A DNA stretch of 34,325 bases, from assembly GCA_016870865.1 (NCBI GenBank), contig VGAC01000019.1, positions 1-34,325 on the forward strand. The letters are read 5' to 3'. The position numbers were made by a program, and so were the translations under genes. Origin of the DNA: Actinomycetota bacterium (GTDB lineage Bacteria; Actinomycetota; Acidimicrobiia; Acidimicrobiales; Ilumatobacteraceae). This document shows, piece by piece, positions 2,190 through 33,298 of this stretch (positions are counted from its first letter, which is position 1; each line of letters starts with the position of its first letter). The notes under the pieces are model-generated. The model was not told the origin of the DNA and did not search any database. It saw only the letters and a list, made by a program, of their open reading frames with translations.

Positions 2190-2577
2190 CGGTCAGCGTT
2201 GCCTTCATGTTTTGGTGACCAGGCACGTCGCAGAGCAATTGGTACACGCCGGCGTCGAGTTTGATCGTACCGACCACGGCGTCCCCCTTCTTGCCGGTCA
2301 CCAACTTGAAGTTCGGAATCTTTGTTCCGTCCTGGGCGATGATCAGACTGTGGCGCACCGAATCTTCGTTGGCGAAGCCGACCGAAATCTCTCCCGCAGG
2401 TGCGGTGTAGTCGGCGGCGTCGAAACGAAGAGACGGAACGTTGGTCACGGTGAAGTCAAGACCCGCCGGCAAGGTGTCGGCGGGCGCGGAGTCCCCTCCG
2501 CCACAAGCGGCCATAGCCAGGCCCGAGCCGAGCAGGAAAAGAACGGAACTACGACGAAAAAAGCTCTTGGGATCCAT
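2182..2577 (-). CDS. Cupredoxin-like (plastocyanin-type) lipoprotein
   Basis: This 131-residue protein has a basic N-terminus, a hydrophobic stretch and a lipobox-like AMAAC with Cys25. It is therefore probably exported and lipid-anchored on the outer face of the membrane. The rest is a beta-rich cupredoxin domain. The likely type 1 copper ligands are His76 (in SVRHSL), Cys116, His121 and Met124, the last three in CDVPGHQNM with the usual Cx4HxxM spacing. It probably carries single electrons or handles copper. ATG at 2577 was preferred over GTG at 2598 because a TACTCT hexamer ends 7 bases before it. The 3' end overlaps the convergent oxidoreductase gene by 8 bases. Its redox partner is unknown; a link to the neighbouring oxidoreductase is only positional. 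Confidence 0.85.
   Translation of the reverse strand: MDPKSFFRRSSVLFLLGSGLAMAACGGGDSAPADTLPAGLDFTVTNVPSLRFDAADYTAPAGEISVGFANEDSVRHSLIIAQDGTKIPNFKLVTGKKGDAVVGTIKLDAGVYQLLCDVPGHQNMKATLTVS
2185..2197. repeat. Palindrome at the convergent stop codons
   Basis: GCTGACGGTCAGC is a perfect 6-bp inverted repeat around one base, covering the end of the oxidoreductase gene and the last codons of the cupredoxin gene. It could form a small hairpin in both transcripts, but there is no T-run. Confidence 0.4.
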
Positions 2578-2584
2578 GAAAAAA

Positions 2585-2590
2585 AGAGTA
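2585..2590 (-). promoter_or_regulatory. -10 hexamer TACTCT for the cupredoxin gene
   Basis: Read on the minus strand, TACTCT is followed by 7 bases (mostly T) and then the ATG at 2577. This spacing predicts a leaderless transcript. No clear -35 box is seen. Confidence 0.5.
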
Positions 2591-2654
2591 CAAGGCACAC
2601 CCGGCCGATGTCATCTCGTGGCACAGGTGGGCGACTCGGAGGGGAGTCGGAGAG

Positions 2655-2660
2655 TACGAT
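2655..2660 (+). promoter_or_regulatory. -10 hexamer TACGAT for kgd
   Basis: TACGAT lies 8 bases before the kgd ATG at 2669, so transcription would begin at or within one or two bases of the start codon. The only Shine-Dalgarno-like purine run (2638-2646) is over 20 bases upstream, too far to act. Confidence 0.5.
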
Positions 2661-2668
2661 TTTGGTTG

Positions 2669-5600
2669 ATGACGACAACGCCCCCCTCCGCGTCGGACTC
2701 CTTCGGTACGAATTCCTGGCTCGTGGACGAAATGTACGAGCAGTACCGCATCGACCCGACCTCCGTGGCCGACACGTGGCGCGAATTTTTCAGTGACTAC
2801 ACGCCCGGGCATGCCGGTTCGGTGCCGGGTGTCGCTGTGGCCGCTCCGACGCTGTTGACCAACGGCACGTCGCAAGTTGCCGCCCCCGGGGTGGCCTCTG
2901 CGGGTGCCGCGGGCGAGCCGATTCGGGGTGCGGGTGCGGCCATCGTCGCCAACATGGAGCGCAGCCTCAGCGTGCCGACCGCGACGAGTTTCCGCAACGT
3001 ACCAGCGCGTCTGCTCGAGGTGAACCGCCAGGGGATCAATGCGTACATGACGCGCGACGGTATGGGGAAAGTGTCCTTCACCCACCTCATCGGCTACGCC
3101 GTCGTACGGGCGATCGCCGACTCGGTGCCGGCAATGAACAATTCCTTCACCGTTGACGATGCGGGAAATCCCCAGATCGTCCGCAAGGCTGAAGTGAACA
3201 TGGGCCTTGCGGTCGACGTTGCGAAGGCCGACGGAACGCGAACACTCGTAGTGCCGGTTTTGCGCAATGCGGGCGCACTGAGCTTCGCGGAGTTCCTCAA
3301 TGCCTACGAGGAACTGATTCGCAAGGTCAAGACGAACAAGCTCGCCGTGGCCGATTCCCATGGAGCGACGATCACGCTCACCAATCCCGGAACCATCGGC
3401 ACCGTGCAGTCGGTCCCGCGCCTCATGCCCGGGCAGGGTGTCATCATCGGTGTCGGTTCGATCGACTATCCCGCCGAGTTCCAGGGTGCCGACGAAAAGG
3501 CGTTGTCGAAGTTGGGTGTGTCGAAGGTTGTCACCATCACCAGCACCTACGACCATCGCATCATCCAGGGCGCCGAGAGCGGCATGTTCCTGAAGCGTGT
3601 TCACGAGTTGTTGATCGGTGGGCACGGTTTCTACGACTCGGTCTTTGCCAGCCTCGGCGTGCCCTACAAGGCCAAGCAGTGGCGTCACGACAGCAACGTG
3701 TCCGACGACGACGAACAGCGACTGCACAAGCAACTGCAGGTGACCAACCTCATCCGTGCGCATCGTGTGCGTGGCCACCTGATGGCCGATCTCGACCCAT
3801 TGCGTTGGAAGGAACCCACGCTCCCCGAGGAGCTCGACCCCGAAACGTACGGCTTGTCGATCTGGGACCTTGAACGCGAATTCCTCACCGGTGGAGTTGG
3901 AGGCCACACGAAGCAGGAACTCGGCGACATGCTCGCCGTGTTGCGCGATGCATACTGCGGCACGATCGGCGTGGAGTACATGCACATCCAGAACACGGCG
4001 GAGCAGCGCTGGTTCCAAAAGCGCCTGGAGGGCGTGGTGTTTCGGCCCACGATGTCGCAGAAGAACCGCTTGATGGAGCGCTTGAACGCCGCGGAGGCGT
4101 TCGAGAAGTTCCTTGCCACCAAGTACGTCGGAACGAAGCGTTTCGGTCTCGACGGCTCGGAGGCCGCGATTCCGATCATCGACACGATTCTCTCCGCTGC
4201 CGCGGGTGACCACCTCGACGGATCAGTCATCGGTATGGCCCACCGTGGGCGCCTCAACGTGCTGGCGAACATCGTCGGCAAGAGTTACGACCAAATTTTC
4301 AAGGAGTTCGAAGGCCACATCAAGCCCGATTCGGTGCAGGGGTCGGGTGACGTGAAGTACCACCTCGGTGCGCACGGCAAATTCGTCTCGGTCGATGGTG
4401 ATTCCATCGACGTCGAACTGGCCGCCAACCCGAGCCATCTCGAGGCGGTCGATCCGGTCGTGCTCGGCATGGTGCGCGCTTCCCAGGACCAGATTGCACC
4501 CGCCATGTCGTTCAGCGTCCTTCCGTTGTTGATCCATGGTGATGCCGCGTTTGCGGGCCAGGGTGTGGTGGCCGAATGCCTCGCGATGAGTGACATCAGC
4601 GGCTACCGCGTGGGCGGGTCCGTCCATCTCATCATCAACAACCAGATCGGATTCACCACCGCACCGCAGTTCTCTCGCTCGTCCCCCTACAGCTCCGACG
4701 TCGCCAAGACCGTGCAGGCCCCGATTTTGCACGTGAATGGTGATGATGCCGAGGCATGCATTCGCGTTGCGAGGTTGGCGTACGACTACCGGCAGGAATT
4801 CCACAAGGACGTGGTGATCGACTTGATCACATACCGCAGGCACGGCCACAACGAGGGTGACGACCCGAGCTACACGCAGCCCCTCATGTACAAGAAAATC
4901 GCCGAGCACCGCAGTGTGCGCAAGCAGTACGTCGAGACGTTGGTGAAACGCGGCGACATCACCCTCGAACAAGCCGAGCAACACCTGGCCGACTACCAAG
5001 GAAAGCTTCAGGCGGCACTCGATGAAACGCGTGCGCATGCACCGGCGCCGATCAAGGCCGCGAAACCCCCTCAGCCGCTGGGCGTCGTGCCCCACCTCGA
5101 GACCGGTGTCGATCGAAGTGTTCTCGACGGGGTCATCTCCGCTCTCACCGCCTATCCCAAGGGGTTCACGCCGCACCCCAAACTCGCCAAGCAGTTCGAG
5201 ACCCGCGAAAAGCTCTACCGCGACGAGGGCGAGATCGAATGGGCGCTCGGCGAAGCTCTTGCGATCGGTTCACTGCTTGCCGGCGGAACGAGTGTGCGAC
5301 TTACCGGCGAGGACTCGCGGCGCGGCACCTTCAGTCAGCGGCACGCTGCGCTCATCGATTACGAGAACGAGCGCAACTGGGTGCCTCTGGCGGATCTTGC
5401 CACCCAAGGGGCGAACTTCTGGGTGTACGACTCCTTGCTCTCGGAGTACGCCGCTCTCGGGTTCGAGTACGGGTACGCGCACACCAATCGATCTGCCCTG
5501 GTCATATGGGAGGCACAGTTCGGCGACTTCGTCAACGGTGCGCAGATCATCATCGACCAGTACATCGTTGCGGCCGAGGACAAGTGGGGCCAGGACAATG

Positions 5601-6262
5601 GACTAGTGATGCTCCTGCCTCACGGCTTCGAAGGCCAGGGCCCCGAACATTCCTCGGCTCACATCGAGCGGTTCCTCCAGGCATGTGCCGAGGACAACAT
5701 CCAGGTGGTCAATTGCACGACCGCAGCCCAGTATTTTCACGTCCTGCGCCGTCAGGCGCTCCGCGAGGTTCGCAAGCCCCTGGTGATCTTCACACCAAAA
5801 CAGCCGCTTCGCATGAAAGAAAGCCGGTCGAAGATCGGCGACTTCACCCGTGCCAGTTTCGAAGAGGTTCTAGGAGATCCGTTCGCTCCGCCGGCCGCAG
5901 AGGTGAAACGAATCATCATGTGCAGCGGCAAGGTTGCATGGGATGCGATGAACGAGCGGACCAAGCGCGGTGTTCCCGCGGCGGTTGTCCGCATCGAACA
6001 GTTGTACCCGTTCCCCTTCGAGCAGTTGGTCACCGAGATTGCCAAGTACCCGAACGCCAGGGAACTGGTGTGGCTGCAAGAAGAGCCGGAGAACATGGGC
6101 GCTTGGCACTGGGTCGAGCACCGAATCTGGCGCCTCAAGGAGCGCGGGTACGACCTTCGTCACGTTGCCCGTGTCGAATCGGGCAGCCCCGCCACGGGGT
6201 CGATGATCATCCACCAGCAGGAACTCGCCGACCTGATGGATGAGACACTCAACGCCCGGTGA
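2669..6262 (+). CDS. kgd: Multifunctional 2-oxoglutarate decarboxylase/dehydrogenase, E2-E1 fusion
   Basis: This 1197-residue protein matches the actinobacterial Kgd/OdhA architecture. A short N-terminal helical segment (about 10-45) is followed by a Pro/Ala-rich linker. An E2-type succinyltransferase domain without a lipoyl domain spans about 90-340, with the catalytic TYDHRIIQGA motif near residue 295. A thiamine-diphosphate E1 domain runs from about 345 to the end, with MAHRGRLN near 523 and the ThDP-binding stretch from HGDAAFAGQG to INNQIGF (about 620-660). It decarboxylates 2-oxoglutarate in the TCA cycle, acting with E2p and E3 encoded elsewhere. The reading frame opens further upstream at 2441, but homology begins at the ATG at 2669, which also sits 8 bases after a -10 hexamer. 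In mycobacteria the enzyme is controlled by GarA; no garA is seen here. Confidence 0.96.
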   Translation: MTTTPPSASDSFGTNSWLVDEMYEQYRIDPTSVADTWREFFSDYTPGHAGSVPGVAVAAPTLLTNGTSQVAAPGVASAGAAGEPIRGAGAAIVANMERSLSVPTATSFRNVPARLLEVNRQGINAYMTRDGMGKVSFTHLIGYAVVRAIADSVPAMNNSFTVDDAGNPQIVRKAEVNMGLAVDVAKADGTRTLVVPVLRNAGALSFAEFLNAYEELIRKVKTNKLAVADSHGATITLTNPGTIGTVQSVPRLMPGQGVIIGVGSIDYPAEFQGADEKALSKLGVSKVVTITSTYDHRIIQGAESGMFLKRVHELLIGGHGFYDSVFASLGVPYKAKQWRHDSNVSDDDEQRLHKQLQVTNLIRAHRVRGHLMADLDPLRWKEPTLPEELDPETYGLSIWDLEREFLTGGVGGHTKQELGDMLAVLRDAYCGTIGVEYMHIQNTAEQRWFQKRLEGVVFRPTMSQKNRLMERLNAAEAFEKFLATKYVGTKRFGLDGSEAAIPIIDTILSAAAGDHLDGSVIGMAHRGRLNVLANIVGKSYDQIFKEFEGHIKPDSVQGSGDVKYHLGAHGKFVSVDGDSIDVELAANPSHLEAVDPVVLGMVRASQDQIAPAMSFSVLPLLIHGDAAFAGQGVVAECLAMSDISGYRVGGSVHLIINNQIGFTTAPQFSRSSPYSSDVAKTVQAPILHVNGDDAEACIRVARLAYDYRQEFHKDVVIDLITYRRHGHNEGDDPSYTQPLMYKKIAEHRSVRKQYVETLVKRGDITLEQAEQHLADYQGKLQAALDETRAHAPAPIKAAKPPQPLGVVPHLETGVDRSVLDGVISALTAYPKGFTPHPKLAKQFETREKLYRDEGEIEWALGEALAIGSLLAGGTSVRLTGEDSRRGTFSQRHAALIDYENERNWVPLADLATQGANFWVYDSLLSEYAALGFEYGYAHTNRSALVIWEAQFGDFVNGAQIIIDQYIVAAEDKWGQDNGLVMLLPHGFEGQGPEHSSAHIERFLQACAEDNIQVVNCTTAAQYFHVLRRQALREVRKPLVIFTPKQPLRMKESRSKIGDFTRASFEEVLGDPFAPPAAEVKRIIMCSGKVAWDAMNERTKRGVPAAVVRIEQLYPFPFEQLVTEIAKYPNARELVWLQEEPENMGAWHWVEHRIWRLKERGYDLRHVARVESGSPATGSMIIHQQELADLMDETLNAR

Positions 6263-6265
6263 ACC

Positions 6266-6937
6266 TCAGCCAAGGTCGACGGAGATCGCCTCGCTCAGTT
6301 GTGACAGAGCGTCGGCGGGATCGACGACCTTGATGGTGTGCATTCCCAATGCTGCAGCCGGTTTCAGGTTGATGCCGAGGTCGTCGAGAAATACGCACTC
6401 GTGCGGCATCACATCCACGAGTTTGCAGGCGATCTCGTAGAACCGTGTCTCGGGTTTGCGACAGCCGACCTTGCTGCTCTCGACGACCGCATCGAAGCGT
6501 GCCATCACTTCGTTGACGGCGGTCGCCCGCGCCGCGGTCGCCTTGTCACCCCCAACGACATTGTTCGTCAGGCACGCCGTCTTGAAGCCCGCAGCCTTCA
6601 CGCGGTCGAGGGCGGCGACCATGGGCGGGCGGATCTCGCCGGCAAGAAGACCCAGCACGTCTGCTCCGGGTACGCGGTGACCAAGCCGCTCGCTTTCGTC
6701 TGCAAAAAGGGTGTCGAAGGCCGGTGGCGCAATCTCGTTGCGCTCCAGCAGGGCCCAGGCGTTCGTATCGGGGTCGGTGGCGTTGACCCTGCGGAGGAAC
6801 CCCGGGGGCAGGCCGCGGCTCTTTTCGTAGCGCGCGAAAGCTTCAAACGGGCTTTCGAGGATCACGCCCCCGAAGTCCCAGAAAACTGCGCGAAAGCGGT
6901 CGTGCGGCACGTGGAAATTCCCCTCGGAGTCGGTCAT
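6266..6937 (-). CDS. HAD-superfamily (IA) hydrolase, DFGGV-type motif I
   Basis: This 223-residue HAD protein resembles the N-terminal domain of ACAD10 and epoxide-hydrolase-linked HAD proteins. Motif I is WDFGGVI, with the nucleophile at Asp21. The Asp normally found two residues later, the acid/base of HAD phosphatases, is Gly23. Motif II is CLTNN (Thr124), the motif III lysine is Lys156 or Lys161 (SKVGCRKPETRFYE), and motif IV is FLDDLG (Asp185/186). It may be a dehalogenase-like or specialised phosphatase; the substrate is unknown. The gene converges on kgd with 3 bases between stops, and it diverges from the NYN nuclease gene. GAGG lies 8 bases before the start, a plausible ribosome site. 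Confidence 0.85.
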   Translation of the reverse strand: MTDSEGNFHVPHDRFRAVFWDFGGVILESPFEAFARYEKSRGLPPGFLRRVNATDPDTNAWALLERNEIAPPAFDTLFADESERLGHRVPGADVLGLLAGEIRPPMVAALDRVKAAGFKTACLTNNVVGGDKATAARATAVNEVMARFDAVVESSKVGCRKPETRFYEIACKLVDVMPHECVFLDDLGINLKPAAALGMHTIKVVDPADALSQLSEAISVDLG

Positions 6938-7029: not shown

Positions 7030-8160
7030 ATGCCCGCCCCAAAGAGTCCGAAACACGTGGTCGTGGACGGCTCCAACATCGCAACCGAGGGGCGCAGCGC
7101 GCCGAGCCTCAAGCAGTTGAATGAGGCCGTCCTGGCCTTCATGAACGAGTCCCCCGAAACCAAGGTCACCGTCGTCGTCGATGCAAGCTTTGGACACCGT
7201 ATCGACAAGAAGGAAGTCGCTGAGTTCGATGCTGCGGTCGACAACAACGAACTCGTCACGCCGCCCGCGGGCGCCATCGGCCGTGGTGACGCTTTCGTCC
7301 TGGCAATAGCCGACAAGGTGAAGGCTTCGATTCTCTCGAACGACAGCTACCAAGAGTTTCATGGCCAGTATCCGTGGCTCTTCGAACAAGGTCGGCTGCT
7401 CGGCGGCAAGCCAGTGCCGCATGTCGGATGGATCTTCGTCGAGCGTACGCCCGTTCGCGGCGAGAAGAGCAAACGCGCGATGCGCGTGCAAGACTCGGGC
7501 AAGCGTGCGGCCGTCACCACTGTGAAGAAGGCGAGCAAAGCCGCCAGTGCACCCATGCCGGTTCCCAAGACACCGCCGCCCGGCGCGCGGGTCCAACCGG
7601 TCAAGCCGAAGTCCGCGCCGGCGGCAGAGTCACCGTCGAATGCTTCGCGCGCGGTCAACGACGTCCTGCCGTTTCTCGCTTTCGTCGAAAAGCATCCGGT
7701 CGGCAGGAAGGTCAAGTGCCTCGTCGAGTCCTACAGCGCCCATGGCGCCCATGTCAGCGTGGACGGGATAAAGGCATACGCGCCGCTGCGCCTCCTCGGA
7801 AGCCCGCCCCCACGCAGCGCGCGGGATGCGCTCAAACTCGGTGAGGTGGTGCAGTTGGTGATCGCCGGATACACGCCATCACGGCGCAGTGTGGAGGTCG
7901 GGGTGGTCGAGGCCGTCAAGGTTGCTGCCCCAACGAAGGCCCCGGCACAACCCAAGGCCGCGGTCAAGAAACACAAAAAGTCGCCGCCAAAGAGGAGCGT
8001 TGCGAAGCCGGTCAGAAAAAAGACAACGCCGAGGCCGCCCGCGAAAAAGGTCCTGGCGGCCAAGAAGGCGGGCGGGAAGAAGGCAGCAGCAAAAAATTCC
8101 TCCGTCCGCAAGGCGCCGGCAAAAAAAGTGCCTGCGAAGAAGTCCATGACGAGGAAGTGA
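7030..8160 (+). CDS. NYN/Zc3h12a-like ribonuclease with S1-like domain and lysine/alanine-rich tail
   Basis: This 376-residue protein has three parts. Residues 8-140 are a NYN (PIN-like) ribonuclease domain of the Zc3h12a/Regnase type. It has VVDGSN (Asp13, Asn16), VVVDAS (Asp51), RGDAF (Asp87) and SNDSY (Asn104, Asp105), then FEQGRLL, which matches the FIEERLL region of animal Regnase. After a Pro/Ala-rich linker, about 225-293 forms an S1/OB-like RNA-binding domain (VGRKVKCLVESYSAHGAHV, then LKLGEVVQLVIAGY). Residues from about 300 to 376 are a histone H1-like tail of KK, AKK and PAKK units. The combination predicts a cytoplasmic endoribonuclease held on RNA or the nucleoid. xthA follows after 9 bases, so the two are probably co-transcribed. 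No ribosome site or hexamer supports the start, but the domain begins directly after it. Domain calls are by motif; the cellular target is unknown. Confidence 0.85.
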   Translation: MPAPKSPKHVVVDGSNIATEGRSAPSLKQLNEAVLAFMNESPETKVTVVVDASFGHRIDKKEVAEFDAAVDNNELVTPPAGAIGRGDAFVLAIADKVKASILSNDSYQEFHGQYPWLFEQGRLLGGKPVPHVGWIFVERTPVRGEKSKRAMRVQDSGKRAAVTTVKKASKAASAPMPVPKTPPPGARVQPVKPKSAPAAESPSNASRAVNDVLPFLAFVEKHPVGRKVKCLVESYSAHGAHVSVDGIKAYAPLRLLGSPPPRSARDALKLGEVVQLVIAGYTPSRRSVEVGVVEAVKVAAPTKAPAQPKAAVKKHKKSPPKRSVAKPVRKKTTPRPPAKKVLAAKKAGGKKAAAKNSSVRKAPAKKVPAKKSMTRK

Positions 8161-8169
8161 GGTTCAGCC

Positions 8170-8940
8170 TTGCTGATCGCAACCTGGAACGTGAACTCGC
8201 TCAAGGCACGGCTGCCACGGGTGACCGAATGGTTGGCCGAGGTACAACCCGACGTCGTGTGCATCCAGGAAACGAAAATGGCCGATGCCGCTTTTCCTGC
8301 ACTCGCTTTCGGCGAGATGGGGTACGACTCGGTGCATTTCGGCCAGGGCCAATGGAACGGTGTCGCGATACTGTCGCGGGTTGGCCTCGACAAGCCGCGG
8401 GTGAACTTCGCATCCGGTGAACCCGATCCCGAGGCGCGCATCATCACCGCCGACTGTGGGGGAGTGACGGTTGCATCGGTTTACGTTCCGAACGGTCGTG
8501 CGCTCGATCACGATCACTACACGTACAAGTTGCGTTGGATGGCGCAGCTTCACGCGCATGCTGCCGCGGTGTCGAGACCTGACGGCAGTCTTGTCATCGC
8601 CGGCGACTACAACATTGCCCCCGATGACCGCGACGTGTGGGATCCCGCGAAACTCGAGGGGCAGACACACGTCAGCAAGGCCGAGCGTGACACGCTCACC
8701 GTGCTCGAAGACTGGGGTTTGCGCGACGTGTTCCGCGACCACTACCGAGACGAAAAGCTGTTCTCGTGGTGGGACTATCGGGGCGGCGACTTCCATCAAG
8801 GGCGCGGCATGCGCATCGACTTGATGTACGCAACCAAGTCGGTGGCCGAGCGGACGACGTGGTGCGGTATCGATCGCAACGCCCGCAAAGGAGAGCAGCC
8901 GAGCGATCACGCGCCCGTCATGATGCTCCTCGGTCCGTAG
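8170..8940 (+). CDS. xthA: Exodeoxyribonuclease III
   Basis: This 256-residue endonuclease/exonuclease/phosphatase-fold protein has every exonuclease III signature: Asn7 (WNVNS), Glu34 (IQETK), Tyr105 (VYVPNG), Asp146 and Asn148 (GDYNIAP), and Asp246/His247 (SDHAP). It cleaves DNA at abasic sites and degrades 3' ends in base-excision repair, using Mg2+. The start is a TTG 9 bases after the upstream stop codon. It is the only usable start, because the fold begins with the next residues and an in-frame stop lies just upstream. The TAG stop of this gene is also the beginning of the -10 hexamer of the next gene. Confidence 0.95.
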   Translation: MLIATWNVNSLKARLPRVTEWLAEVQPDVVCIQETKMADAAFPALAFGEMGYDSVHFGQGQWNGVAILSRVGLDKPRVNFASGEPDPEARIITADCGGVTVASVYVPNGRALDHDHYTYKLRWMAQLHAHAAAVSRPDGSLVIAGDYNIAPDDRDVWDPAKLEGQTHVSKAERDTLTVLEDWGLRDVFRDHYRDEKLFSWWDYRGGDFHQGRGMRIDLMYATKSVAERTTWCGIDRNARKGEQPSDHAPVMMLLGP

Positions 8941-29815: not shown

Positions 29816-32800
29816 GTGTTTCTCAAGTCCCTGACCCTGAAAGGCTTCAAATCCTTCGCCGACACCACGGTGCTGGAACTAGAACCGGGAATCACGGTCG
29901 TCGTGGGCCCGAACGGGTCGGGCAAGTCGAATGTCGTCGATGCCATCGCGTGGGTTCTCGGTGCGCAGGCGCCCTCAGCGGTGCGTAGCCAGAAGATGGA
30001 CGATGTCATCTTTGCCGGCACGGAAAAGCGCCCTGCGCTCGGGCGCGCCGAGGTGGTGCTGACACTCGACAACTCGGCCGGTCTTTTGCCGATCGAATTC
30101 ACCGAGGTCACCGTGGGTCGCACGCTCTTCCGTTCCGGTGAGAGCGAGTACTCGATCAACGGTGTCGAGTGTCGTCTACTCGACGTGCAGGAACTGCTCT
30201 CCGACGCGGGTGTCGGTCGTCAGCAGCACGTCATCGTCAGCCAGGGCCAGATCGATGCGGTGCTCAACGCACGACCCGAAGACCGCCGCGCCATCATCGA
30301 GGAAGCAGCCGGTGTCTTGAAGTACCGCAAGCGGAAGGAAAAAGCGGAACGACGCCTCGATGGTACCGAGGCAAACCTCCTGCGCGTCCAGGACCTCATC
30401 CGTGAGGTACGCCGGCAGTTGCGCCCGCTGGAACGGCAGGCCGAGGCAGCGCGCCGTCACGGCGCGCTCGTCACCGAATTGAAGGCCCTTCAGATCTACG
30501 TCGCAGGGCGCGAAATCGCCGCTACCCGCGCCCGCCTGGTGGTTCTCGCCGGCGACAAAGCAAACGGCGCGCGCACCGAACGCGAGCAGCGTGCCCGCCT
30601 GGCCGAACTCGACGCGCTGGTGCTGTCGTCGGAAGCCGACCTGACCGCTCTCGGTGATACCGGTGTGAGTGATCAGCTGGTGCGTGTCGAACAGTTACGC
30701 GAGCGCGCCCGAGGCCTCGCGGCACTTCTCGCCGAACGCCGCCGTTCGATGGAGCGTGAACGCAGCCAGTTCATGGACGCCGATGTCATGGCTTCACTCG
30801 AAGTCGATGCCGCGGCGCTGCGCGGGGAGCTCGATTCGATCAATTCCGAGCTGTCGCTCGTCGACCCCGAGCGTGAGTCGCTCGAGCGTGACGAGGCAGA
30901 CTTTGCACTGCGTCGGCAAGCCGCGGGTGACGAGGACGTCGCCGAGCTGCCGACACCCGTTGCCGCAAGCGCGGCGGCCGAGGTGCGCGGGGAGTTACGA
31001 ACCCTGCGTGCGAACGACGAACGTGACCATGCCGAACTGCAGCGTGTCGTGACCCGCATCGCGCAACTAGACGATCGTGCGCTGCGTTTGGCAGCCGACA
31101 TCGAGCGCCTCGGCAACGATTACGAGTCTGCGGAGGGTGCCGCCAAGCGGATCGAAGACGAGGTGCGTGGTCAGTCCGAACGTCGGGCCGCAGCCGAAGC
31201 CACGCTCGACGCGGCCACGCAAGCCGGCGCAACCGCAGCCGCTTCGCTGGCGCACTGGAATGCCCGTGTCGAGGTGTTGCGCGAGGCACTCGAAACCGCG
31301 CGGTCTCGCGCCGGGCTGCAACATCTCGCCGACGTGGGCGGCGTGGTCGGTGCCCTCGTCGATCTCATCCGTGTCGAAGATGGTTGGGAGGCCGCGGTGC
31401 ACGCGGCGCTCGGTGATGCCGTCGCCGGAATCGTCCTGCGCGATGCCTCGGCTGCGCGTGAAGCATTGTCGAGCCTGGACTCGAAGAGTGTGAACGGAGC
31501 GGTGCTGGCGCTCGGTGGCACGCAGAAGGCAGCCGTGGTGACTCCCGCCGGTGTGCGACCCGTTCGGGGTGTCGTGCGCGCAGCAGGACCGGATGCCGCC
31601 GCGATCGACTCACTGCTCGACACGCTGCTGTCGCGCGCGGTCATCGCCGATTCCTGGGCAACCGCCGTCGACATAGCGCTATCCAACCCCACCCTGCACG
31701 TCGTCACGCGTCGTGGTGACCGCTTTGCACCCTCGGGCTGGCGTATCGGCGGCCAGGCCGGTGCCGTCACTGCAGCAGCGCTCGAGGACGCAGTGGCCCG
31801 TCAGTCCGAGGCGAACACCGAATCCGATCGACGTGCGGGCGAGTTGGCGCGGACCCGCGCCGAAATGCAATCCGCGCGCAGCTCCTTCGCCGAACTCGAG
31901 CGTCGCCACGAACAACTGACGCGGGCGCGTCTCGCGGCGGCCGACAGCCTGCAGCGCGTCACAGGGGAGCGGCGCGAAGTCATCGCCGAGCTGGATGCGG
32001 TGCGTTCGCAGCGCGATGACGTCTCCGGCCGTCTCGAGCGGGCGGTATCGCGAATCGCGGAACTGGAAGTCGTCCTGCCCCGTCTCGAGGCCGACGAGGC
32101 GATGGAAGCCGAGACGATGCGCACCATCGGCGTGGCGCGAGCGGGGCTCGACGCCGAGGTATCGCGCCTCGCGCTGCGCCGCAAGGATCTCGAAGTGAGG
32201 TCCGTCGGCCTCGTCGAGCGTCAGCAGTTCGTGCAGCGACGTCTCGACGAAACCGAGTCCCGTCTCGCCGCAGACGCCGATGCTCGTGCACAAGCTGCCG
32301 GGGCACGTATTCGCCTGCAGCGGGCCTTCGACGCAATAGTCGGTCTCAGCGACCTGGTCGACCGTCACCGCATCACGACCGAGGCGTTACTCGTCGAGCT
32401 CCACGAGGCTCGTCGTCGCCAGAGCGACGAGGTGCGCGAAGTGGCCGCACGACTCGACACGGCACGCCGAGACCGTCAGGCGACCGAGCGCGAACTCGAC
32501 GAGCAGCGTGAACGCGGTCGGCGTATCGATATCGACGAGGCCGAAGTGCGCATGCGACTCGAAGCCACCGTCGAGTCACTGCGCCGCGACCTGGAGGTCG
32601 AGCCCGAAGTCGCCGAGGCAACCGAGATGCCGGCGATCGCCGAGGGTGTCACCCCGATCGCGCGCGTGCGTGAACTCGAACGCGAACTCCGTCTGATGGG
32701 CCCGATCAACCCCTTGGCTCTCCAGGAGTTCACCGAACTCCAGAAGCGCCACGAATTCCTCGAGTCCCAGTTGGAGGACGTTCGCAACACGCGTCGTGAT

Positions 32801-33298
32801 CTGCTGCGTGTGATCAAGGCCGTCGACGAGGAGATTCAGTCGGTGTTCGGCACCGCGTTCCACGACGTTGCGCGCAACTTCCAGGAACTGTTCGGCGGTC
32901 TCTTTCCCGGGGGTTCGGGCCGCCTCACTTTGACCCTGCCGGAAGATCTGCTGAACACGGGCATCGAAGTCGAGGCCCGACCGGGTGGGAAGAACGTCAA
33001 GAAACTGTCGCTTCTTTCGGGTGGCGAGCGGTCGCTCACCGCGCTCGCTTTTCTCTTCGCCGTGTTCCGCAGCCGCCCTTCGCCGTTCTACGTGATGGAC
33101 GAAGTGGAGGCCGCCCTCGACGACGTGAACCTCTCGCGCTTTCTTGGCCTGCTCGGTGAGTTCCGCCGCGACGCTCAACTTCTCGTCGTTAGTCACCAAA
33201 AGCGCACGATGGAAGCGGCCGATTGTCTGCTTGGCGTCACCATGCAGCCGGGCGGTTCGTCGAAGGTGATAGTCGAGCGCGCGTCGAGCACCAACTAA
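29816..33298 (+). CDS. smc: Chromosome segregation ATPase SMC
   Basis: This 1160-residue protein starts MFLKSLTLKGFKSFAD. Walker A is GPNGSGKSN (31-39). Two long coiled coils flank the hinge (about 500-640, beginning near LQHLADVGGVVGALVD). The C-terminal head has LSGGERSLTALAF (about 1067) and Walker B FYVMDEVEAALDD (about 1091). It organises and segregates chromosomes with ScpAB, which are not in the window. ftsY follows after 5 bases, the usual actinobacterial arrangement. Confidence 0.97.
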   Translation: MFLKSLTLKGFKSFADTTVLELEPGITVVVGPNGSGKSNVVDAIAWVLGAQAPSAVRSQKMDDVIFAGTEKRPALGRAEVVLTLDNSAGLLPIEFTEVTVGRTLFRSGESEYSINGVECRLLDVQELLSDAGVGRQQHVIVSQGQIDAVLNARPEDRRAIIEEAAGVLKYRKRKEKAERRLDGTEANLLRVQDLIREVRRQLRPLERQAEAARRHGALVTELKALQIYVAGREIAATRARLVVLAGDKANGARTEREQRARLAELDALVLSSEADLTALGDTGVSDQLVRVEQLRERARGLAALLAERRRSMERERSQFMDADVMASLEVDAAALRGELDSINSELSLVDPERESLERDEADFALRRQAAGDEDVAELPTPVAASAAAEVRGELRTLRANDERDHAELQRVVTRIAQLDDRALRLAADIERLGNDYESAEGAAKRIEDEVRGQSERRAAAEATLDAATQAGATAAASLAHWNARVEVLREALETARSRAGLQHLADVGGVVGALVDLIRVEDGWEAAVHAALGDAVAGIVLRDASAAREALSSLDSKSVNGAVLALGGTQKAAVVTPAGVRPVRGVVRAAGPDAAAIDSLLDTLLSRAVIADSWATAVDIALSNPTLHVVTRRGDRFAPSGWRIGGQAGAVTAAALEDAVARQSEANTESDRRAGELARTRAEMQSARSSFAELERRHEQLTRARLAAADSLQRVTGERREVIAELDAVRSQRDDVSGRLERAVSRIAELEVVLPRLEADEAMEAETMRTIGVARAGLDAEVSRLALRRKDLEVRSVGLVERQQFVQRRLDETESRLAADADARAQAAGARIRLQRAFDAIVGLSDLVDRHRITTEALLVELHEARRRQSDEVREVAARLDTARRDRQATERELDEQRERGRRIDIDEAEVRMRLEATVESLRRDLEVEPEVAEATEMPAIAEGVTPIARVRELERELRLMGPINPLALQEFTELQKRHEFLESQLEDVRNTRRDLLRVIKAVDEEIQSVFGTAFHDVARNFQELFGGLFPGGSGRLTLTLPEDLLNTGIEVEARPGGKNVKKLSLLSGGERSLTALAFLFAVFRSRPSPFYVMDEVEAALDDVNLSRFLGLLGEFRRDAQLLVVSHQKRTMEAADCLLGVTMQPGGSSKVIVERASSTN

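Follow-up and report, generated by a model that had tools for sequence, protein, structure and literature searches.

The stretch analysed here, referred to as the window, comprises 34,325 nucleotides of an Ilumatobacteraceae genome from the actinobacterial class Acidimicrobiia (contig VGAC01000019.1, assembly GCA_016870865.1). Its forward strand carries, at positions 7030-8160, an open reading frame (ORF) with an ATG start that encodes a protein of 376 residues. An initial, sequence-only reading had seen in this protein an NYN nuclease domain, an S1-like domain and a basic tail, and profile matches, predicted folds and composition together bear this out. That observation as a whole is confirmed; the functional interpretation attached to it is supported in part. 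The layout is given below. Confidence values, expressed as predicted local distance difference test (pLDDT) scores, come from an AlphaFold2 prediction of the 376-residue protein built on a 32-sequence alignment.

7030..8160, + strand: gene for the NYN-S1-basic-tail protein, 376 residues plus stop; matches in 93/101 family genomes
7042..7464, + strand: NYN (Zc3h12a/Regnase-type) nuclease domain, residues 5-145; from PF11977, invariant residues and predicted fold
7465..7659, + strand: disordered linker, residues 146-210; blocks spanning residues 141-210 have pLDDT 52-69
7660..7920, + strand: S1 (OB-fold) domain, residues 211-297; from PF00575 in orthologues and predicted fold
7921..8157, + strand: Lys/Ala/Pro tail, residues 298-376; from composition, with pLDDT 42-51 from residue 301

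Orthologue alignments used in what follows contain 32, 23 or 61 sequences and are subsets rather than the full set of matches. Searches of the open-licence literature of PubMed Central did not turn up a description of the architecture, nor any paper on Acidimicrobiia in combination with an NYN domain or on Ilumatobacter in combination with an endoribonuclease.

An NYN domain of the Zc3h12a type

The RNase_Zc3h12a profile PF11977 matches residues 8-113 of the window protein at E 7.4e-8, with a score of 32.7 bits (cut-off 23), and was matched at E<=0.01 by all 32 aligned orthologues. The predicted structure is confident in this region, with pLDDT above 80 in each of the 13 ten-residue blocks between residues 11 and 140 and above 90 in nine of them, and residues 1-145 fall within the PIN/NYN fold, as the sequence-only reading had supposed. 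Comparison of residues 5-143 with known structures using VIA-align gave Z scores of 13.7 for ZC3H12C, 13.6 for MCPIP1 and 13.4 for KHNYN; the fold matches to MCPIP1, ZC3H12B/C and KHNYN, several of which have been solved with RNA or metal, span Z 12.4-13.7, those to ZC3H12C and MCPIP1 falling at 13.2-13.7. The top ranks of a Foldseek search were taken by the same two groups found for the protein by VIA-align, Regnase/KHNYN nucleases and ribosomal S1. When a profile built from NYN domains of the family itself was compared with the PDB, 10 distinct sequences were matched at E<0.01, all of them ZC3H12A/B/C or KHNYN (6e-5 to 2e-3); no other family reached that threshold, the next matches lying at 0.053 and 0.74. 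In the window genome there was no match to PF01936 (NYN), which we take to be the DUF88 family, at E<=0.001, and none to PF05991 (NYN_YacP/Rae1).

Asp13, Asn16, Asp51, Asp87 and Asp105 are invariant in 32/32 aligned orthologues and in 61/61 of the larger set. All five had been listed in the sequence-only reading as residues of the Regnase nucleases. For D13, N16, D87 and D105 this holds at the positions named, since they align with the DGSN motif, the second Asp of the DD pair (DD-RF) and the SND motif of Regnase/KHNYN. D51 does not correspond to any catalytic acid of Regnase: on our reading of the profile alignments its counterpart is Pro in ZC3H12A and Gln in KHNYN, and it is an invariant (61/61) specific to this family. 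The SNDSY and FEQGRLL motifs, also pointed out earlier, are present at residues 103-107 and 118-124, respectively.

The protein thus shares with ZC3H12A-C/Regnase (MCPIP1) and KHNYN the NYN/PIN fold of residues 5-143, the DGSN, D-x-F and SND motifs and a profile match. It differs from them in being bacterial, in carrying an S1 domain and a basic tail, in having Gly-Asp for Asp-Asp, and in the extra invariant residues D51 and E20; the CCCH zinc finger of Regnase is absent, the single Cys being residue 230. By profile, fold and motifs the protein belongs to the PF11977 NYN group but, without zinc finger or DD pair, it is not Regnase proper. Its predicted metal site is related to that of Regnase, yet not identical.

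Selection on the domain was assessed through the ratio of non-synonymous to synonymous substitution rates (dN/dS), which for NYN ranges from 0.01 to 0.02 in comparisons with the three closest copies (L048, L049 and L050) and from 0.14 to 0.17 with the more distant L062 and L068; in the comparison with L052 synonymous sites are saturated. One class genome (G178) contains a second, stand-alone NYN-like ORF of 154 residues (L096:1342-1806, - strand), related to the family, in which the DGSN Asn has been lost, and short NYN-like matches of 29-33% identity also occur in G185, G238, G270 and G276.

S1 domain, linker and basic tail

The S1 domain is weakly marked in the window protein itself, where only NCBIfam ribosomal-S1 models match (residues 214-304, E 0.0056-0.12) and Pfam S1 gives no match at E<=1. 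PF00575 (S1) is, nevertheless, found at E<=0.01 in 28/32 orthologues, and the blocks from 211 to 290 of the window protein are predicted with pLDDT 94-97, so that the S1-like domain proposed earlier is upheld by the orthologue profiles and a confident predicted OB fold. Residues 211-296 superimpose on mycobacterial RpsA with a Z score of 14.5 (VIA-align), and the S1 domains of RpsA from Mycobacterium tuberculosis and Vibrio share the fold at Z 11.7-14.5. In contrast to RpsA, the family has a single S1 domain, at 16-18% identity, and most of its members have His at position 238 (60/61) and Tyr or Phe at position 241 (55/61; His in the window protein). Its dN/dS against the three closest copies is 0.02-0.04.

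The linker evolves faster, with dN/dS of 0.26-0.29 against those copies and 0.33-0.52 against L062 and L068. It contains a Pro-rich stretch, AS-x-PMPVPK-x-PPPGA (window 7540-7590, residues about 171-187), whose PMPVPK-x-PPP core occupies residues 175-184. Applied as a strict pattern, the PMPVPK motif occurs in 36/42 orthologues of the family group and 0/19 of the others (36/61 in total), and five of the six family-group sequences that miss it carry a near-identical form; in most sequences from other orders an AIAxATAxA-like stretch takes its place. The stretch might serve to dock a partner, although none was found and no search aimed at one was made.

The tail, estimated earlier at about 75 residues of KK/AKK/PAKK repeats, proves to have 79 (298-376), with 29% Lys, 22% Ala, 14% Pro, no Asp or Glu and a net charge of +28. 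A basic tail is present in 32/32 aligned orthologues, at lengths of 26 to 234 residues and net charges of +9 to +48. Its dN/dS is 0.25-0.31 against the closest copies (two computable pairs) and 0.25-0.94 against L062 and L068: across the aligned sequences, charge is retained while sequence drifts. The earlier description 'histone H1-like' is apt for composition but not for profile membership, the HC2 histone-like profile PF07382 scoring 17.3 bits against a cut-off of 40 in the window protein, with matches at E<=0.01 in 17/32 orthologues. Similar PAKK/KAAK tails are described as necessary for nucleoid association of mycobacterial HupB and as present on Ku and topoisomerase I (PMC5676037; see also PMC7398561). 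The tails of actinobacterial HupB and topoisomerase I resemble that of the window protein in their Lys/Ala/Pro repeats with PAKK/AKK units (PMC5676037); they are, however, found on DNA-binding proteins, whereas the present one is attached to a predicted RNase.

Distribution and neighbouring genes

In the window's own family, Ilumatobacteraceae, 93/101 sampled genomes match. Four of these matches are incomplete or divided: G049 retains 37 N-terminal residues only, in G078 the match is divided between two contigs, and only the C-terminal part is seen in G091 and G097. Across the class Acidimicrobiia the gene is carried by 58/198 sampled genomes (G193 and G227 in partial form), made up of 15/15 from the own family, 28/36 from other families of the order and 15/147 from other orders; the class count was 62/198 before removal of G113, G148, G163 and G252, in which the match lay only or mostly in the basic tail. 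The architecture is therefore no peculiarity of one strain; the cultured isolate Desertimonas flava (L071) is among the carriers of the gene. In samples of the phylum, which overlap with the family and class samples, the NYN profile was matched in 20/296 genomes and PF11977 in 12/198, all inside Acidimicrobiia, and a PF11977 search of 14 named control genomes found nothing. In a tree built from 61 sequences, the own-family group (42 sequences; support 1.0) and the sequences from other orders (10; support 0.996) each separate as a split, which fits vertical descent.

A mobile or defence origin was considered and set aside, there being no confirmed relative in viral contigs, plasmids or phages, although neither a padloc nor a PHROGs scan was run. 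In viral contigs a protein search gave 8 pattern-matching stretches and a profile search 27, none of which was confirmed; the NYN domain had no match at E<=0.01 among 72,556 records of plasmids and 50,697 of phages. Close orthologues also occur in public records of metagenome-assembled genomes that bear the title Bifidobacterium breve (L056, L057) or Acidobacteria (L050, L068). The titles of L050, L056 and L057 look wrong, these being, to judge by their length, the same contigs as G094, G001 and G083, of the window's genus.

Two genes flank the ORF directly:

8170..8940, + strand: exonuclease III (xthA), TTG start; TIGR00633, E 1e-74
6266..6937, - strand: divergent gene for a HAD-type phosphatase; TIGR02247, E 4e-64

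The TTG start of xthA lies 9 bases past the NYN stop codon, exactly the spacing noted before. The other identified neighbours are a 4HBT thioesterase and, further out and on opposite sides, a 2-oxoglutarate dehydrogenase and a UvrD/HRDC helicase. The dehydrogenase (window 2441-6262; 1273 residues) is multifunctional, a single ORF combining an E2-type acyltransferase domain with E1 and transketolase domains, and is presumably of the actinobacterial Kgd type.

Conservation of the pairing with xthA was counted over 65 distinct loci of 75, of which 46 are Ilumatobacteraceae-type (same-family loci plus named records assigned by sequence and gene order, a group that the tree splits off with support 1.0) and 19 are others. 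Omission of 5/65 loci with fewer than 200 bases downstream (4/46 and 1/19) left 42 and 18 usable. In 42/42 Ilumatobacteraceae-type loci xthA lies directly downstream in the same orientation, with a spacing of -4 to +44 bases. By these searches, the other 18 have xthA adjacent in 2 cases, a rhodanese gene in 7 and neither in 9.

Wider stretches were inspected in 20 genomes outside the own family. In families f4, f7, f9 (2 genomes) and f17 xthA follows the NYN gene on the same strand, adjoining it or within about 0.7 kb, and the distance is up to about 5 kb in f8 and f13; it is not in the wider stretch in f3 (2 genomes, where it is 8-10 kb off), f5, f11 or f16. The genes sucA-HAD-NYN-xthA form a recurrent syntenic block, beyond which thioesterase and uvrD genes are often found; the block is an old feature of the order, though not a fixed one. 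In other orders, 8/8 wider stretches, among them two (L037, L040) of the nine loci with neither neighbour, have no xthA; instead, a rhodanese domain lies downstream, no more than about 1.5 kb past the NYN stop codon. Such domains, the names being assigned by eye, were seen at L109:8374-8703 and in L099, L102-L106 and L108; that of L102 sits within a larger metallo-beta-lactamase-like/rhodanese ORF. Five genomes of other orders have xthA on a separate contig (4) or more than 1 Mb away (1). Of 15 genomes in which the NYN gene was scored as absent, 12 also have xthA and one more has a weak partial match to it; these 15 were defined by protein search, and G112, G120, G166, G101, G106 and G111 were empty with the NYN profile too. 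We conclude that xthA is probably a co-transcribed partner in the own family and is not a fixed partner elsewhere.

Function and alternatives

We favour the reading that the protein is a metal-dependent Zc3h12a-type (Regnase/KHNYN) endoribonuclease, held on RNA, the ribosome or the nucleoid by its S1 domain and tail, and estimate its probability at roughly 0.6. Its direct basis is the predicted fold, the metal-site residues, the architecture, the lineage-wide conservation and the purifying selection. Catalysis, RNA as substrate and anchoring by S1 and tail are what we infer from these, cleavage of RNA by analogy with related enzymes. The N-terminal NYN domain would cut single-stranded RNA in a metal-dependent manner, while the flexibly linked S1 domain and polycationic tail would keep the enzyme on its substrate and prolong its residence there; structured RNA, the ribosome and nascent transcripts at the nucleoid are candidate anchors. 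The role might be a housekeeping one, in processing or decay of mRNA and rRNA beside RNase E/G and RNase J. Bacterial NYN domains with ribonuclease activity are on record: a CRISPR-associated NYN protein of Bacteroides fragilis is described as Mn-dependent on single-stranded RNA (PMC11346440), and Rae1/YacP of Bacillus subtilis as an NYN ribonuclease whose action on mRNA is ribosome-dependent (PMC11346440; PMC10100781).

Such an enzyme would work alongside the established RNases. RNase E/G (TIGR00757) is found in 187/198 class genomes, the window's own included; RNase J (TIGR00649), which the window's genome also has, is in 19/20 chosen genomes with the NYN gene and 14/15 without; and YacP (PF05991) is in 9/20 and 4/15, respectively. 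Since none of the three alternates with the NYN gene, its replacement of any of them is unsupported. RNase P RNA is present in the window genome (RF00010, 224 bits), and replacement of that RNA by a protein-only RNase P was likewise set aside.

Several observations weigh against the favoured reading. The first Asp of the Regnase pair, which we take to be D225-D226 of Regnase-1, is replaced by Gly86 (Gly86-Asp87) in 61/61 sequences, so the predicted metal site appears one acid short of Regnase's unless D51 or E20 substitutes. The usual aromatic RNA-contact positions of S1 domains, here 238 and 241, are conserved only in part. Against L062 and L068 the dN/dS of S1 reaches 0.40-0.44, where that of NYN is 0.14-0.17, so that S1 is clearly less constrained over longer times. 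Finally, no RNA-processing gene is among the identified neighbours, many of the neighbouring ORFs being unidentified.

A bolder version of the same idea is tentative. Acidimicrobiia might harbour a bacterial Regnase/KHNYN branch whose S1 domain and histone-like tail replace the zinc finger or KH module, the gene being near-core in one family and widespread in the order of that family. The product might then act in mRNA decay, anchored to the nucleoid or the ribosome, and have a common ancestry with animal immune RNases.

A more specific form of the favoured reading, unlikely in our estimation, is a ribosome-dependent mRNA endonuclease like Bacillus subtilis Rae1/YacP, with S1 and tail as a putative grip on the ribosome. 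Rae1/YacP (PF05991) is likewise bacterial, of NYN class and possibly ribosome-linked, but belongs to another Pfam family and, to our knowledge, Rae1 has neither S1 domain nor tail. That the S1 domain is nearest to ribosomal protein S1, and that the window genome has no YacP match, speak for this form; against it, YacP-type genes fail to alternate with the NYN gene in the counts given above.

The pairing with exonuclease III had been taken in the sequence-only reading as support for nucleic-acid maintenance, and a DNA-repair or R-loop nuclease could be built on it, in which the tail would hold the enzyme on the chromosome, NYN would remove RNA or flaps at damage and XthA would process what follows. 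The unbroken adjacency in Ilumatobacteraceae-type loci (42/42, at -4 to +44 bases) favours it, as does the UvrD-like helicase near many of them; basic tails of this kind are described on DNA-binding actinobacterial proteins (PMC5676037), and PIN-like proteins are described as acting in DNA replication and repair, among other processes (PMC11346440). The pairing stands in the family, but outside it falls to 2/18, with rhodanese adjacent in 7/18 and downstream in other orders, which makes it weak evidence for a DNA-repair role. Moreover, the NYN gene retains its architecture in the five genomes of other orders whose xthA lies elsewhere, xthA occurs in 12/15 genomes without the NYN gene, S1 is an RNA-binding fold and the nearest nuclease folds are RNA endonucleases. 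We consider this explanation improbable.

No more probable is an enzyme processing the ends of stable RNAs (tRNA or rRNA) in the manner of protein-only RNase P, which has the same NYN-type fold. PRORP1 and PRORP2 do appear in the fold list (Z 12.4-12.6), the S1 domain is of ribosomal type and the gene is near family-wide (93/101), all in favour of such a role. Yet with its RNase P RNA kept the genome has no need of a protein-only RNase P, the family NYN profile finds Regnase/KHNYN and not PRORP, and the absence of a match in 8/36 genomes from the order's other families makes the function look dispensable. Loss of catalysis usually allows active-site residues to drift, and a catalytically dead NYN scaffold that merely binds RNA is very improbable given D13, N16, D87 and D105 invariant in 61/61 and an NYN dN/dS of 0.01-0.02 against the three closest copies, even though one of Regnase's two adjacent Asp residues is absent and the stand-alone relative in G178 also lacks the DGSN Asn.

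Whatever its exact role, a Regnase-type nuclease, a kind studied mainly in animal immunity, is strongly conserved within a single class of Actinomycetota and turned up in no sampled genome from the rest of the phylum; its accessory modules differ from those of its eukaryotic counterparts. The element that appears new is the triple NYN-S1-basic-tail architecture. The PF11977 nuclease group is known, and so is fusion of a PIN nuclease to an S1-like fold: bacterial DUF88/LK-nuclease proteins are described that combine a PIN-superfamily nuclease with OST-HTH and an S1/cold-shock OB fold, differing in their nuclease family and in carrying OST-HTH (PMC2848206). If the predicted endoribonuclease activity is real, actinobacterial RNA turnover gains one more RNase, and the protein offers a test case of whether PAKK-type tails serve RNA enzymes besides DNA-binding proteins.

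Elsewhere in the window, at 29816-33298, lies an ORF of 1160 residues for an SMC chromosome-condensation ATPase with N-terminal and hinge domains.
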